Assembly (NCBI GenBank): GCA_036381125.1
Contig: DASVDK010000072.1
Span: 1 to 5,951, forward strand
Length of the DNA stretch: 5,951 nucleotides
Direction: 5' to 3'
Origin: DASVDK01 sp036381125 [NCBI: Thermodesulfobacteriota bacterium]
Lineage (GTDB): Bacteria > DASVDK01
In this document: piece by piece, positions 2,990 to 5,951 of the stretch
How positions within the stretch are numbered: position 1 is the stretch's first letter
Layout of the letters: every line of letters begins with the position of its first letter
Translations under genes and position numbers: made by a program
Notes under the pieces: generated by a model
What the model saw: the letters and a program-made list of their open reading frames with translations, nothing else
What the model was told of the DNA's origin: nothing
The model's database searches: none

Positions 2990-3835
2990 TCAGCGGCCTC
3001 CGTTCTGACGTTTCGCTCGGGCCTGCTCGCCCAGCTCGCGTGATCGCTTCGTCGCCGCCTCCACGGCGTTGATGAGCGTCGTGCGCAGGCCGCCCTGCTC
3101 GAGCGTGTGGAGCCCGGCGATGGCGGTGCCGCCGGGGGAGGTCACCTTGTCCTTGAGCGCCCCCGGGTGCTCGCCGGTCTCGATGAGGAGCTTGGCCGCC
3201 CCGAGCACCGTCTGCGCCGCCAGCGCGAGCGAGACGTCGCGCGACAGGCCGACGCGCACACCCGCGTCGGCGAGCGCGTCGATGATGACGAAGATGTAGG
3301 CCGGCCCGCTCCCCGAGAGGCCGGTGATCGCGTCCATGAGCCCCTCGTCGTCGAGCACGACGGTCGTCCCGACCGAGTCGAAGATCGCCTTGGCCATGGC
3401 GAGATCGCTCTCGGTCGCGTGGGCGCCCGCCACCAGGGCCGTGGCCCCCGCCTGGACGAGCGCGGGAGTGTTCGGCATCACGCGGACGACGCGCGAGCGC
3501 TGGTGCAGGTACGTCTCGATCGACTCGATCGGGACGCCGGCCGCCACCGAGACGATCAGCTTGTCGGCCGTCACGACCCCGGCGACCTCCTCGAGCACCT
3601 TCGGCAGGATCTGCGGCTTCACCGCCAGGACGACGATGTCAGCGCCGGTCACCACCTGCCGGTTGTCGCTGCAGGCCGCGATGCCGTAGACCTGGCGGAT
3701 GTGCGCGACGCGCTCCTCCGTGTGGTCCGAGGCGAGGAGTTGCGTCCTCGCCAGGCCCGCGGCGATGAGGCCCTTGATGAGCGCCTCGGCCATGTTGCCG
3801 GCGCCGACGAAGCCGATGGTCTTGTTGCCGAGCAT
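2990..3835 (-). CDS. proC: Pyrroline-5-carboxylate reductase
   Basis: A complete 281-residue P5C reductase, the last enzyme of proline synthesis, reducing 1-pyrroline-5-carboxylate to L-proline with NAD(P)H in the cytosol. The N-terminal Rossmann domain opens with IGFVGAGNMA (residues 7-16), the dinucleotide-binding glycine motif. It continues with VVLAVKPQ (68-75) and the conserved RVMPNTP (118-124). The C-terminal dimerisation and active-site domain carries GLSGSGPAY (172-180) and the P5CR signature KDKVTSPGGTAIAGL (228-242), complete except for the common TT being TA. Length is normal for the family. The start ATG is supported by GAGGA at 3847-3843, seven bases upstream. The MFS gene follows 41 bases after the TGA. 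The tail (ARAKRQNGGR) is basic and unremarkable. No yggS/ylmE-like gene precedes it, unlike the common proC context. A 5-bp hairpin (3872-3885) sits in its leader; its meaning is unclear. Confidence 0.97.
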   Translation of the reverse strand: MLGNKTIGFVGAGNMAEALIKGLIAAGLARTQLLASDHTEERVAHIRQVYGIAACSDNRQVVTGADIVVLAVKPQILPKVLEEVAGVVTADKLIVSVAAGVPIESIETYLHQRSRVVRVMPNTPALVQAGATALVAGAHATESDLAMAKAIFDSVGTTVVLDDEGLMDAITGLSGSGPAYIFVIIDALADAGVRVGLSRDVSLALAAQTVLGAAKLLIETGEHPGALKDKVTSPGGTAIAGLHTLEQGGLRTTLINAVEAATKRSRELGEQARAKRQNGGR

Positions 3836-3905
3836 GGGGAGATCCTCGACGGAAAGTGGGCCTGAGCCTACCCCCGGCCTCGGGGAGCGTCAAGGAAGCC
3901 GTGAG

Positions 3906-3912
3906 AAGGAGG
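3906..3912 (+). promoter_or_regulatory. Strong Shine-Dalgarno AAGGAGG ahead of a small ORF
   Basis: AAGGAGG is a full match to the 16S rRNA anti-Shine-Dalgarno and lies eight bases before a GTG codon at 3921. It is the best ribosome-binding site in the window and is the main reason to consider the short ORF that follows. Confidence 0.4.
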
Positions 3913-3920
3913 CGAGCCTC

Positions 3921-4031
3921 GTGACCGCCCTCGGCCGGGAGGCCTGGGAGGCCCTGTCGGCCGGCCTCGGCCGGATGGTCGCCGCGGCGGAGACCGCCGG
4001 GGCGCGACGCGGGGCCGACTCGCACCGGTAA
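3921..4031 (+). CDS. Possible small protein of 36 residues (hypothetical)
   Basis: A GTG-started reading frame of 36 codons ending in TAA at 4029-4031, divergent from proC. Support comes from an AAGGAGG eight bases upstream, G or C at every third codon position except one CGA codon and the stop, and an imperfect hairpin 16 bases after the stop. The peptide begins MTALGREAWEALSAGLG, looks like one amphipathic helix of about 25 residues, and ends with a basic tail (ARRGADSHR). It has no signal peptide or membrane segment. I do not recognise it. The frame remains open upstream of the GTG, so another possibility is the remnant C-terminus of a decayed larger gene; the alanine-rich helix loosely recalls the last helix of MarR-type regulators, but that is weak. 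High GC content inflates chance ORFs, hence the modest confidence. Confidence 0.33.
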   Translation: MTALGREAWEALSAGLGRMVAAAETAGARRGADSHR

Positions 4032-4046
4032 CCCCTGCCCCTCACC

Positions 4047-4073
4047 GACGGGCCGCGCGCGGTAGCGGCCGTC
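4047..4073 (+). terminator. Imperfect hairpin after the small ORF
   Basis: GACGGGCCGC (4047-4056) pairs with GCGGCCGTC (4065-4073) to give nine base pairs with one bulged G and an 8-base loop. It starts 16 bases after the TAA of the candidate small gene. No T-run follows directly, although an AT-rich stretch begins about ten bases later. It may act as a terminator in either direction, or be chance in GC-rich DNA. Confidence 0.25.
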
Positions 4074-4083
4074 ATCCGAAGGC

Positions 4084-4099
4084 AATAAATATATGCATA
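4084..4099. other. AT-rich island with TATGCATA palindrome
   Basis: Fourteen of sixteen bases here are A or T, in sharp contrast with the surrounding GC-rich DNA. The island contains the 8-base palindrome TATGCATA (4092-4099). Such islands in GC-rich genomes often mark promoters, protein-binding sites or the seam of inserted DNA. On the minus strand a TTGACG (4107-4102) lies just upstream, but no -10 element sits at the right distance, so I do not call a promoter. It lies about 260 bases before proC and about 90 bases from the repeat array. Confidence 0.4.
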
Positions 4100-4189
4100 C
4101 GCGTCAAATGGCCTCGCGCTCGGTCGCGCCGGCGACCCCGCTCCTCGGCGCCTGGCTCCTCGTCGACTCGGCCGGGGTCCTCCCCCGCG

Positions 4190-4289
4190 GGGGTCAGGTC
4201 TCAACGCTTTCCACGGGGTCAGGTCTCAACGTTTTCCATGGGGTCAGGTCTCAACGTTTTCCATGGGGTCAGGCCTCAACGTTTTCCGG
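4190..4289 (+). repeat. Tandem repeat array, left arm: four 25-base units
   Basis: Four head-to-tail units of exactly 25 bases, at 4190-4214, 4215-4239, 4240-4264 and 4265-4289. Each unit has a 12-base block GGGGTCAGGTCT, a 5-base centre CAACG, a 6-base block TTTTCC and two variable bases. Unit 1 has CTTTCC in place of TTTTCC, and unit 4 has GGCCT in place of GGTCT and ends in GG; units 2 and 3 are identical. The period is not a multiple of three and no gene runs through it. Unit 1 is preceded by a perfect 12-base palindrome CCCCCGCGGGGG (4182-4193) that overlaps its first bases. Confidence 0.97.
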
Positions 4290-4300
4290 CGCCGTCGGTC

Positions 4301-4375
4301 AGGAAAATGGAAAGACCTGACCCCCAGGAAAATGGAAAGACCTGACCCCCAGGAAAATGGAAAGACCTGACCCCC
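4301..4375 (-). repeat. Tandem repeat array, right arm: three inverted 25-base units
   Basis: Three identical head-to-tail 25-base units at 4301-4325, 4326-4350 and 4351-4375, in the opposite orientation to the left arm. Read on the minus strand each contains GGGGTCAGGTCT, then the 5-base centre TTCCA, then TTTTCC and TG. The 12-base and 6-base blocks are identical to the left-arm consensus, but the 5-base centre differs in every copy. The two arms are in register: blocks of left units 4, 3 and 2 face right units 1, 2 and 3. A transcript could therefore form a long hairpin (4215-4374) with a 14-base loop (4288-4301) and regularly spaced internal loops. The right arm ends seven bases from the epimerase stop codon, so it would form the start of that gene's 3' untranslated region. 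No transposase gene is present in the window. Confidence 0.97.
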
Positions 4376-4382
4376 GGATGCT

Positions 4383-5390
4383 CTAGATCAGGAACCCGTC
4401 CCGGAGGGGGTCGTCGGGATCGACGACGAGCGTGCTGATGGCGACGAGGTGCGCGCGGCCGGCCACCTCCGGGACGACGGCGCGCACGCCGTTCAGTGAG
4501 ACCTCGCGGAGCAGGCGGCCGCGGAAACGGGTGCCGACGACGCTCTCGTGGACGAACGGCTCGCCGAGCGCCAGCAGGCCCTTCGCGTGGAGGTCGGCCA
4601 TGCGGGCGCTCGTGCCGGTGCCGCAGGGGGAGCGGTCGACGGCCCGGGGGGCCACGATGACGACGTTGCGGCGGTGGGCGCCGGCGCCGGCGGCCGGGCC
4701 GGTCCACTGGATGTAGAGCAGCTCGGGGAAGCCGGGCCGTTCGGGGTGCTCGAGCGGGATGGTCGCCTCCATCAGCAGCCGGATCCGCTCCCCCGCGTCG
4801 ACGAGCCGCGGGCAGGCCTCGGGCGTGAGCGGAAGGTCGAGCTGGGCGGCCTCGACGATCGCGTAGAAGTGCCCCCCGTACGCCAGGTCGACCGTTACCG
4901 GCGGGAGCCCCTCGGCCTCCACGACGAGCCCGCGCCGGTAGGCGAATGCCGGCACGTTCTCGAAGGCCACCTCCACCACCCGCCGCGCCTCGACCCTGGC
5001 ACGCGCCGTCACGAGGCCGGCGGCCGTGTCGAGCGTCACCTCGGCCACGCCGTCCGAGACCGGCACGCGGCCGGTCTCGACGAGCCAGGTGGCGAGCGCG
5101 ATGGTGCCGTGCCCGCACATGTAGACGGGGCCGAGCGGCTCGAGGAAGACGATCCCGGCGTCGGCCCCGTTCACGGTCGGCTCGGTGACGATGGCGCCGC
5201 ACATGGCGCCGTGCCCGCGCGGCTCGAGGAGGACCTGCCTCCGGAGCGCGTCCATGTGGTCCCGCACGTGGACCGTCTTCTCCATCATGGTCGCCCCGGG
5301 GATCGGCCCGACGCCGCCGACGACGATCCGGAAGGGCTCGCCGGCGGTGTGGTAGTCGAAGCAGGAGAGGGTGCGGCTCACCGTGATCAC
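4383..5390 (-). CDS. Proline racemase family protein, probably 4-hydroxyproline epimerase
   Basis: A complete 335-residue cofactor-independent racemase/epimerase of the proline racemase family, cytosolic. The two catalytic thiols are both present: Cys92 in MCGHGT (91-96) and Cys256 in DRSPCGTGTS (252-261). The HTAGEP motif at 14-19 and the LEPRGH block at 55-60 are also typical. A cysteine at the second site separates it from trans-3-hydroxyproline dehydratases, which have threonine there. The family interconverts L- and D-proline or trans-4-hydroxy-L-proline and cis-4-hydroxy-D-proline. The MCGHG form and the adjacent oxidoreductase gene favour the hydroxyproline epimerase role, but sequence alone does not settle the substrate. 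The start chosen is GTG 5390-5388, eight bases after AGGAGG; the open frame extends to 5645, but that extra stretch overlaps the upstream gene and is not family-like. The gene lies 14 bases behind the flavoprotein gene. An inverted repeat array begins seven bases after its TAG. Confidence 0.93.
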   Translation of the reverse strand: MITVSRTLSCFDYHTAGEPFRIVVGGVGPIPGATMMEKTVHVRDHMDALRRQVLLEPRGHGAMCGAIVTEPTVNGADAGIVFLEPLGPVYMCGHGTIALATWLVETGRVPVSDGVAEVTLDTAAGLVTARARVEARRVVEVAFENVPAFAYRRGLVVEAEGLPPVTVDLAYGGHFYAIVEAAQLDLPLTPEACPRLVDAGERIRLLMEATIPLEHPERPGFPELLYIQWTGPAAGAGAHRRNVVIVAPRAVDRSPCGTGTSARMADLHAKGLLALGEPFVHESVVGTRFRGRLLREVSLNGVRAVVPEVAGRAHLVAISTLVVDPDDPLRDGFLI

Positions 5391-5398
5391 GGCCGGGA

Positions 5399-5404
5399 CC
5401 TCCT
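5399..5404 (-). promoter_or_regulatory. Shine-Dalgarno AGGAGG that sets the epimerase GTG start
   Basis: On the minus strand AGGAGG lies directly after the TAG of the upstream flavoprotein (5407-5405) and eight bases before GTG 5390. It fixes the start inside a much longer open frame and indicates that the two genes are translated from one message. Confidence 0.75.
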
Positions 5405-5951
5405 CTAGAGCAGCGCCTCCTCGGCGACGGGCGCCCCCTCGGCGAAGCGAGCGGGACGGAAGGGCGCCATGTCGAGCGTGGTCGAGCGCCCGAGCCGGAC
5501 GGTCTCGGCGATTGCCAGGCCGACGGCCGGCGCCAGCATGACCCCATGCCCGGAGAGGCCGGCCGCCAGGAGGAAGCCGGGCCGGTCGGGGTGCTCGCCG
5601 AGAAGCGCGGCATGGTCGGGCGAGTCGTCCTGCAGGCCGGCCCATCCCCGCAGCAGCCGGCCGCGCGCCACCGGCGGCAGGCGGCCCGAGAGCGACGGCA
5701 GGACCGCGGTCTTGAAGCGGGCGGCGTCGTACGGGAAGGGGCCCCCGCCGAGGTCGGCCGGGTCGGGGAGGCCGGCGCCGCGCCCCTCGCCGACCCGGAC
5801 CCGTCCCTCGCCGTCGGGCCGGAAGTGGATGCCGGACGGGTCGACGGTGAAGGGCCAGTCGTCGCCCATCGGGCTAGCCGGCTCGACCACGTAGACCTGG
5901 CGGCGCAGCGGCGTCACCGGCACGTCGACGCCGGCGAGGCGGCCGACGCGG
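5405..5951 (-). CDS. FAD-dependent oxidoreductase, DAO family (C-terminal part)
   Basis: The last 181 residues of a DAO-type flavoprotein (D-amino-acid oxidase / sarcosine oxidase beta / glycine oxidase fold). The gene runs off the window's right edge, so the N-terminal FAD-binding GxGxxG motif is not visible. The visible part starts in the substrate-binding domain, with the family pattern RLAGVDVPVTPLRRQVYVVEP. Next comes a PSGIHFRPDGEG strand and RGWAGLQDDSPDHAALLG. The C-terminal FAD-contacting motif is GFLLAAGLSGHGVMLAPAVGLAIAE, broken here as GFLLAAGLSGHG followed by VMLAPAVGLAIAE. These enzymes oxidise amino or imino acids to imines. Directly upstream of a proline/hydroxyproline epimerase, the likely substrate is cis-4-hydroxy-D-proline or D-proline, giving a pyrroline carboxylate; this is inferred from context. 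Whether it is an oxidase or a dehydrogenase feeding the respiratory chain cannot be told. Confidence 0.88.
   Translation of the reverse strand, partial: RVGRLAGVDVPVTPLRRQVYVVEPASPMGDDWPFTVDPSGIHFRPDGEGRVRVGEGRGAGLPDPADLGGGPFPYDAARFKTAVLPSLSGRLPPVARGRLLRGWAGLQDDSPDHAALLGEHPDRPGFLLAAGLSGHGVMLAPAVGLAIAETVRLGRSTTLDMAPFRPARFAEGAPVAEEALL

Follow-up and report, generated by a model that had tools for sequence, protein, structure and literature searches.

TIRYTs and TIRtrons, with GGGGWSAS ends and gene-less copies, were already described in 2013 (Di Nocera et al. 2013, PMC3733652), and the accessible part of that account gives their terminal inverted repeats (TIRs) as repeats that carry GGGGWSAS at the outer end, occur in inverted pairs, flank RAYT-like HUH/Y1 genes and also form gene-less dimers or clusters; such TIRs are present in an acidobacterium, Koribacter. 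According to the portion of the source consulted, TIRYTs probably correspond to subclass 2.1 of TnpA_REP, which includes RAYT group 1 and whose marks are GGGG[AT][CG]A[CG] repeats and long Y1 proteins extended at the C terminus (PMC6006769). The REPINs and BIMEs of RAYT/TnpA_REP also consist of two inverted repeats that make one hairpin, are tied to an HUH-Y1 transposase and are known in tandem clusters (excerpts of PMC3116915 and PMC8266576), which in P. fluorescens are composed of whole REPINs with their flanks (PMC3116915). RAYT and TIRYT enzymes are believed to disperse short hairpins across genomes, and how the repeats multiply is presented as unsettled in the section available (PMC8266576).

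Here, we analyzed an inverted array of 25-nt units on a 5,951-nt contig stretch from a Thermodesulfobacteriota bacterium (DASVDK010000072.1; this whole stretch is hereafter called the window). The features referred to below are as follows.

4190–4287, plus strand: left arm array of four units, starting at 4190, 4215, 4240 and 4265, centre CAACG
4288–4301, no strand: loop of 14 nt, GGCGCCGTCGGTCA, between the arms
4302–4374, minus strand: right arm array of three identical inverted units, with minus-strand starts at 4374, 4349 and 4324, centre TTCCA
4265–4324, no strand: innermost inverted pair, 60 nt, the proposed founding miniature element, to be compared with the pairs of 48–111 nt found elsewhere
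4383–5645, minus strand: long open frame of a proline racemase family gene, which probably begins in truth at about 5390
2990–3835, minus strand: proC (pyrroline-5-carboxylate reductase), the first gene after the array in the downstream direction, encoded on the same strand, with its start at 3835

All seven window units carry GGGGTCAG, a GGGGWSAS sequence, at the outer end, and they make up inverted pairs that can fold into a hairpin, as in the TIRs of TIRtrons. The related loci that we collected from other genomes likewise contain copies without a gene, as dimers or clusters, and heads (the outer blocks of the units) that flank RAYT-like HUH/Y1 genes. The window head fits the TIR-associated (TIRYT) branch of the RAYT/TnpA_REP HUH-Y1 systems rather than the classical GTAG REPs. 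With REPINs and BIMEs, the window shares the hairpin made of two inverted repeats, but it lacks their GTAG tag, and the published clusters repeat whole REPINs with flanks (PMC3116915, as far as its accessible text goes), whereas the window repeats single arms. Whole arms repeated in tandem towards the outside and two unlike centres, both of which the window has, are not described for TIRs in the available part of PMC3733652. A classical REP or REPIN was rejected because the units begin with GGGG and no GTAG (GTRG) adjoins them, and a CRISPR array because the units are joined by 2-nt links, not unique spacers, and lie in two orientations.

Anatomy and surroundings of the array

The array comprises four direct 25-nt units (4190–4287), the 14-nt loop and three inverted units (4302–4374); the last left unit, starting at 4265, has no 2-nt link. 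In order, the left units read GGGGTCAGGTCTCAACGCTTTCC, GGGGTCAGGTCTCAACGTTTTCC, GGGGTCAGGTCTCAACGTTTTCC and GGGGTCAGGCCTCAACGTTTTCC, and the right units read GGGGTCAGGTCTTTCCATTTTCC three times on the minus strand. Tandem Repeats Finder reported the left array at 4190–4287 (score 175, with 3.9 copies of period 25 and 95% matches) and the right array at 4300–4375 (period 25, 3.0 copies, 100%, score 152), and a separate repeat search recovered identical copies and paired the arms as inverted repeats. Both programs agree with the coordinates and the exact 25-base period given in a preliminary description made from the sequence alone, which was also right that the centre is fixed within each arm (CAACG in 4/4 left units, TTCCA in 3/3 right units) and that the right arm is uniform, all three of its units being identical. 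The unit formula that it gave as common to both arms, GGGGTCAGGTCT-N5-TTTTCC, applies letter for letter to five of the seven units but not to the other two. The drift that it placed in the outer left units is found in the outermost one (CTTTCC), but the other changed unit is the innermost (GGCCT), and the middle two are identical.

Complementarity between the left and right arms extends to the heads and the TTTTCC blocks but not to the 5-nt centres, CAACG and TTCCA. At a minimum length of 12, the repeat search reported only pairs between the arms; a 5-pair stem is present inside the right-arm units. When folded, the 190 nt from 4188 to 4377 form one nested hairpin, with a free energy of −61.5 kcal/mol as single-stranded DNA (mean of the shuffles −29.95, z = −8.99) and of −115.6 as minus-strand RNA (mean of the shuffles −67.7, z = −9.50), none of 200 shuffles being as good in either case. 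Because the folds beat all 200 shuffles, both as DNA and as RNA, the array is not a product of chance. Its anatomy and its family resemblance to the TIRs of TIRtrons can be read directly from the window.

The stop codon of the racemase gene (4383–4385, minus strand) lies 8 nt past the right array. The five window proteins scanned, namely an ALDH, an MFS transporter, ProC, the racemase and an FAD oxidoreductase, include no transposase, as had been noted before. The genes for the FAD oxidoreductase, the proline racemase family protein, ProC and the ALDH are clustered (2990–5950 on the minus strand and 126–1649 on the plus strand), presumably for proline or hydroxyproline breakdown. The window ProC matched proteins of a genome group in one class of the phylum of genome G010 at 60–64% over nearly the full length, and at 71% over 185 aa in genome G176, and it matched the phylum of genome G014 at 63% too (best of 118 genomes). 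The best racemase match among 145 genomes of the G010-phylum class reached 48%, in genome G192, outside the ProC-matching group, and the ALDH did not exceed 61% in any of the 26 genomes compared. With these values, an assignment of the host to that class on the strength of ProC was rejected. No racemase, MFS or ALDH gene was found in 11 proC-centred loci of other genomes, and, as a consequence, no empty site could be read from them.

The repeat and transposase genes in other genomes

The preliminary description had proposed a search for the two-block motif elsewhere. In one scan of a genome collection (84,980 species by its description), GGGGTCAGGTCT-N5-TTTTCC was found in 37 stretches of other genomes, so that the motif is not unique to this locus. 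The titles of these stretches name Proteobacteria, Planctomycetota, Omnitrophota and Aminicenantes, the last of which we take to be members of Acidobacteriota, among others; the genome groups used below likewise rest on the titles of the loci through which the genomes were reached. The centre CAACG does not occur among the matches listed for the two-block motif, and CAACG proper was present in 1 of 396 genomes of one phylum.

A Y1_Tnp match was detected in 24 of the 26 genomes behind the 37 motif stretches, compared with 5 of 14 control genomes. The head is present in 5 of 30 Y1-centred loci from genomes picked for carrying the motif (L046, L049, L050, L054, L066), in 6 of a further 30 Y1-centred loci, drawn from 19 genomes that belong to a different class (L090, L091, L093, L105, L106, L107) and in none of the 11 proC-centred loci. 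The genes beside the heads in the two Y1-centred sets encode proteins of 236–327 aa where complete, to be set beside the long Y1 proteins of subclass 2.1. Over all loci, several of which were fetched by the motif, a head lies within 600 nt of 17 of the 26 distinct RAYT-like open frames.

In these other genomes, the repeat is part of a transposase element. The right-hand repeat contains the TGA stop of six transposase genes (L016, L054, L066 of Rheinheimera baltica, L091, L093, L107); the stop supplied in this way stands in the context AGACC-TGA-CCCC or AGGCC-TGA-CCCC. The element in L016 measures 912 bp and terminates on both sides in a perfect inverted repeat of 26 bp. L005 and L019 contain its left end again (100% over 136 nt), and L028 contains its right end (99.3% over 275 nt), in each case bordered by different sequence. 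Since the ends recur in differing surroundings within one MAG, the element has either moved or been copied there. All five TIR-flanked proteins scanned match Y1_Tnp, and three of them pass the cut-off of 80 bits for NF047646 (REP-associated tyrosine transposase) with 89.6, 87.4 and 81 bits, the other two remaining below it with 77 and 66.1 bits. The HTH domain that the consulted portion of PMC6006769 names for subclass 2.1 was found, as HTH_23, in one of these five proteins and, at a looser threshold, in neither of two further TIR-flanked proteins.

In L017, L027 and L093, Y1 genes have the repeat GGGGTCAGGYCTTTCC at their flanks, and the repeats at these three loci share the window head and the TTTCC start of the centre. 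In genome G445, GGGGTCAGGTCTCAAC both flanks a Y1 gene and makes a symmetrical pair, and the CAAC head continues there as ATTCAACAAA, not as TTTTCC. Exact window units adjoining a gene were not found in other genomes. Y1 genes flanked by the head as inverted repeats exist elsewhere, and the RAYT-type link that the preliminary description had proposed stands to this extent; the branch concerned, however, is that of the TIRYTs and not that of the GTAG REPs. These observations establish the connection between the motif and transposase genes in other genomes.

At another locus (L154, genome G181, positions 32–1550), one Y1 gene lies amid several heads, and the flank outside these heads, CTTTCAAAAT, is itself common and inverted, as if the repeat ran past GGGG. 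The unit pattern had no match in viral contigs. Three viral occurrences of GGGGTCAGGYCTCAACG (L141–L143) are lone heads without the rest of the unit and were taken as chance; a looser pattern identified three viral loci (L144–L146) with GGGGTCAGGTCTTGAATTTTGCCG near an inexact inverted copy, AGACCCGACCCC. Plasmid matches, in four records, were short pieces only with E-values of 2 to 7 and were discarded.

Gene-less pairs and outward tandem copies

In all loci, the window's included, we identified 42 distinct inverted pairs of 48–111 nt, half of which (21/42) are 63 nt long. The innermost pair of the window (60 nt) can be aligned end to end with 11 pairs of genome G184. Its centre is mismatched at four of five positions, the most of all 42 pairs, the other 41 having no mismatch (28 pairs), one (8), two (3) or three (2). 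This pair fits the gene-less pairs of 48–111 nt, except for its non-pairing 5-nt centres.

Gene-less pair and Y1 gene flank have a common centre in genome G176 (TTTAC) and in G445 (CAAC). G184 holds 25 distinct sites of one repeat, many of them 63-nt inverted pairs; its Y1 gene flanks (TTCG) are unlike the common pair (TTGAT), and no other Y1 gene matching the common pair was found in this genome. At six G184 loci (L118, L124, L126, L128, L138, L139), two 63-nt pairs lie at an almost unvarying distance of about 143 nt, start to start, with a spacer of about 80 nt, and these double pairs may represent a larger composite element.

Heads are often preceded by at least one partial copy consisting of a few flank bases and GGGGTCA (for example, in L009, L012, L017, L026 and L159). 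With the loci picked for tandem copies left out, 15 of 127 heads (11 loci) have their own 5-nt flank and GGGGTC repeated on the outer side within 100 nt, compared with 4 of 149 arms that belong to other hairpins of these loci (Fisher p = 0.0035, a value that overstates the evidence because 5 of the 15 outward cases sit in one locus), and 3 of 127 heads have a partial copy on the inner side. A set-wise count also takes in the loci picked for tandem copies, where outward copies are seen at 28 of 61 heads and an inner partial copy at six. The rate of flank plus GGGGTC copies is 0.19% over all positions of L001–L037 and 0.28% at other GGGG sites. In 250 kb of E. coli, counted with what we take to be the REP consensus, 0 of 20 REP heads have outward copies versus 14 of 111 (Fisher p = 0.13), 20 heads being too few for this control to separate REPs from the other heads.

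We examined the nearest copy in 38 events from 24 loci, the tandem-chosen ones included. The part of the repeat that was copied measures 6–9 nt in 22 events (7 nt in 12) and 12–42 nt in 16, and the inserted flank measures 6–13 nt in 29 of the 38; shorter copies escape detection because the test demands at least 6 nt of repeat and at least 5 nt of flank. The copies in the window, whole arms with a 2-nt link, are a minority form among outward copies. In 11 of 41 genomes, two heads follow each other in the same orientation at a distance of 8–38 nt, compared with 0 of 41 for the reversed control pattern. Outward duplications are thus a demonstrable feature of this repeat in other genomes. We found no account of outward copies of single arms among the listed titles and opening parts of abstracts of the openly licensed literature, and such copies could perhaps be novel.

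Origin of the array

We interpret the window array, with a probability of about 0.72, as a miniature element without a gene that belongs to the GGGG-type TIR family of TIRYTs and whose arms were duplicated outward. The founding element would be the innermost 60-nt imperfect hairpin (4265–4324), with a 12-nt head, an unpaired 5 × 5 centre, a TTTTCC/GGAAAA stem and the 14-nt loop. It would presumably be recognized as folded single-stranded DNA by a TIRYT encoded elsewhere in the host genome; because no transposase was found in the window itself, we only infer that the element was mobile. The founder probably inserted behind the racemase gene before the arms were duplicated, and each arm would then have been duplicated separately, head to tail and on the outer side, the left one to four units and the right one to three. 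Such separate outward copying would leave the centre constant within each arm and unlike between the arms, and the two joined arrays or two founder units that had been proposed for this pattern are not needed, since a single imperfect hairpin whose two arms are unequal can account for both.

The likeliest motor of this duplication would be replication that stalls at the hairpin and then re-copies the flank and part of the arm. Stalling and re-copying would put the copies outside and the complete arm inside, which mostly matches the pattern seen elsewhere. Alternatively, the transposase itself might nick and re-join the DNA, and a transposase cut would explain the favoured end after GGGGTC(A). 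For the window, stalling at the loop would fit rather better because the whole arm was copied and the link measures only 2 nt.

An unlikely alternative to outward copying from one hairpin is a hybrid of two TIR families, one CAAC-centred and one TTTCC-centred and each served by a transposase of its own, whose arms came together here before being amplified. The two kinds do occur apart (the former in G445; the latter in L017, L027 and L093), and the common centres of gene-less pair and transposase gene flanks in G176 and G445 would be in keeping with separate families. However, TTTTCC lies at an equal distance in both arms and is paired, as in one hairpin, the window pair has the size of single elements, and the CAAC head of G445 runs on into a different sequence instead of TTTTCC.

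We consider it quite improbable that the array is a kept host RNA or DNA structure, such as a stabilizer or stop at the 3' end of the racemase transcript, for which transposon ancestry would be irrelevant or wrong. No T-run follows the large hairpin, a terminator scan returned two weak 5-pair minus-strand stems inside the units against 0.3 expected, and the same head accompanies transposase genes elsewhere, whereas the proC-centred loci of other genomes have neither a racemase beside proC nor the motif (0/11). These findings have to be set against the start of the array 8 nt behind the racemase stop, the very stable fold predicted in that transcript and the frequent location of REPs downstream of genes (PMC3733652, in its accessible part). 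An assembly artefact in the number of units or in the entire array is hardly credible: exact short tandem units are difficult for short reads, but this array spans only 186 nt, its left units can be told apart by substitutions, and tandem heads are present in 11 of 41 other genomes.

Beyond the window, we tentatively suggest, as a doubtful generalization, that GGGG-type TIR elements grow outward from the insertion site, their edge being duplicated repeatedly, from about 6–13 nt of target flank plus GGGGTCA up to a whole arm. It is likewise conceivable, although we would not rely on it, that the complete arm usually stays innermost in this mode of growth and that the window, with full arms on both sides, is an extreme case. 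If the transposase does set the break after GGGGTC(A), the copies would record a nick-and-rejoin activity that has not been described for TIRYTs. Outward copies with a favoured break point provide a footprint on which replication slippage can be tested against transposase action, and outward copying shows a route from one small element to an inverted array with two unlike arms.
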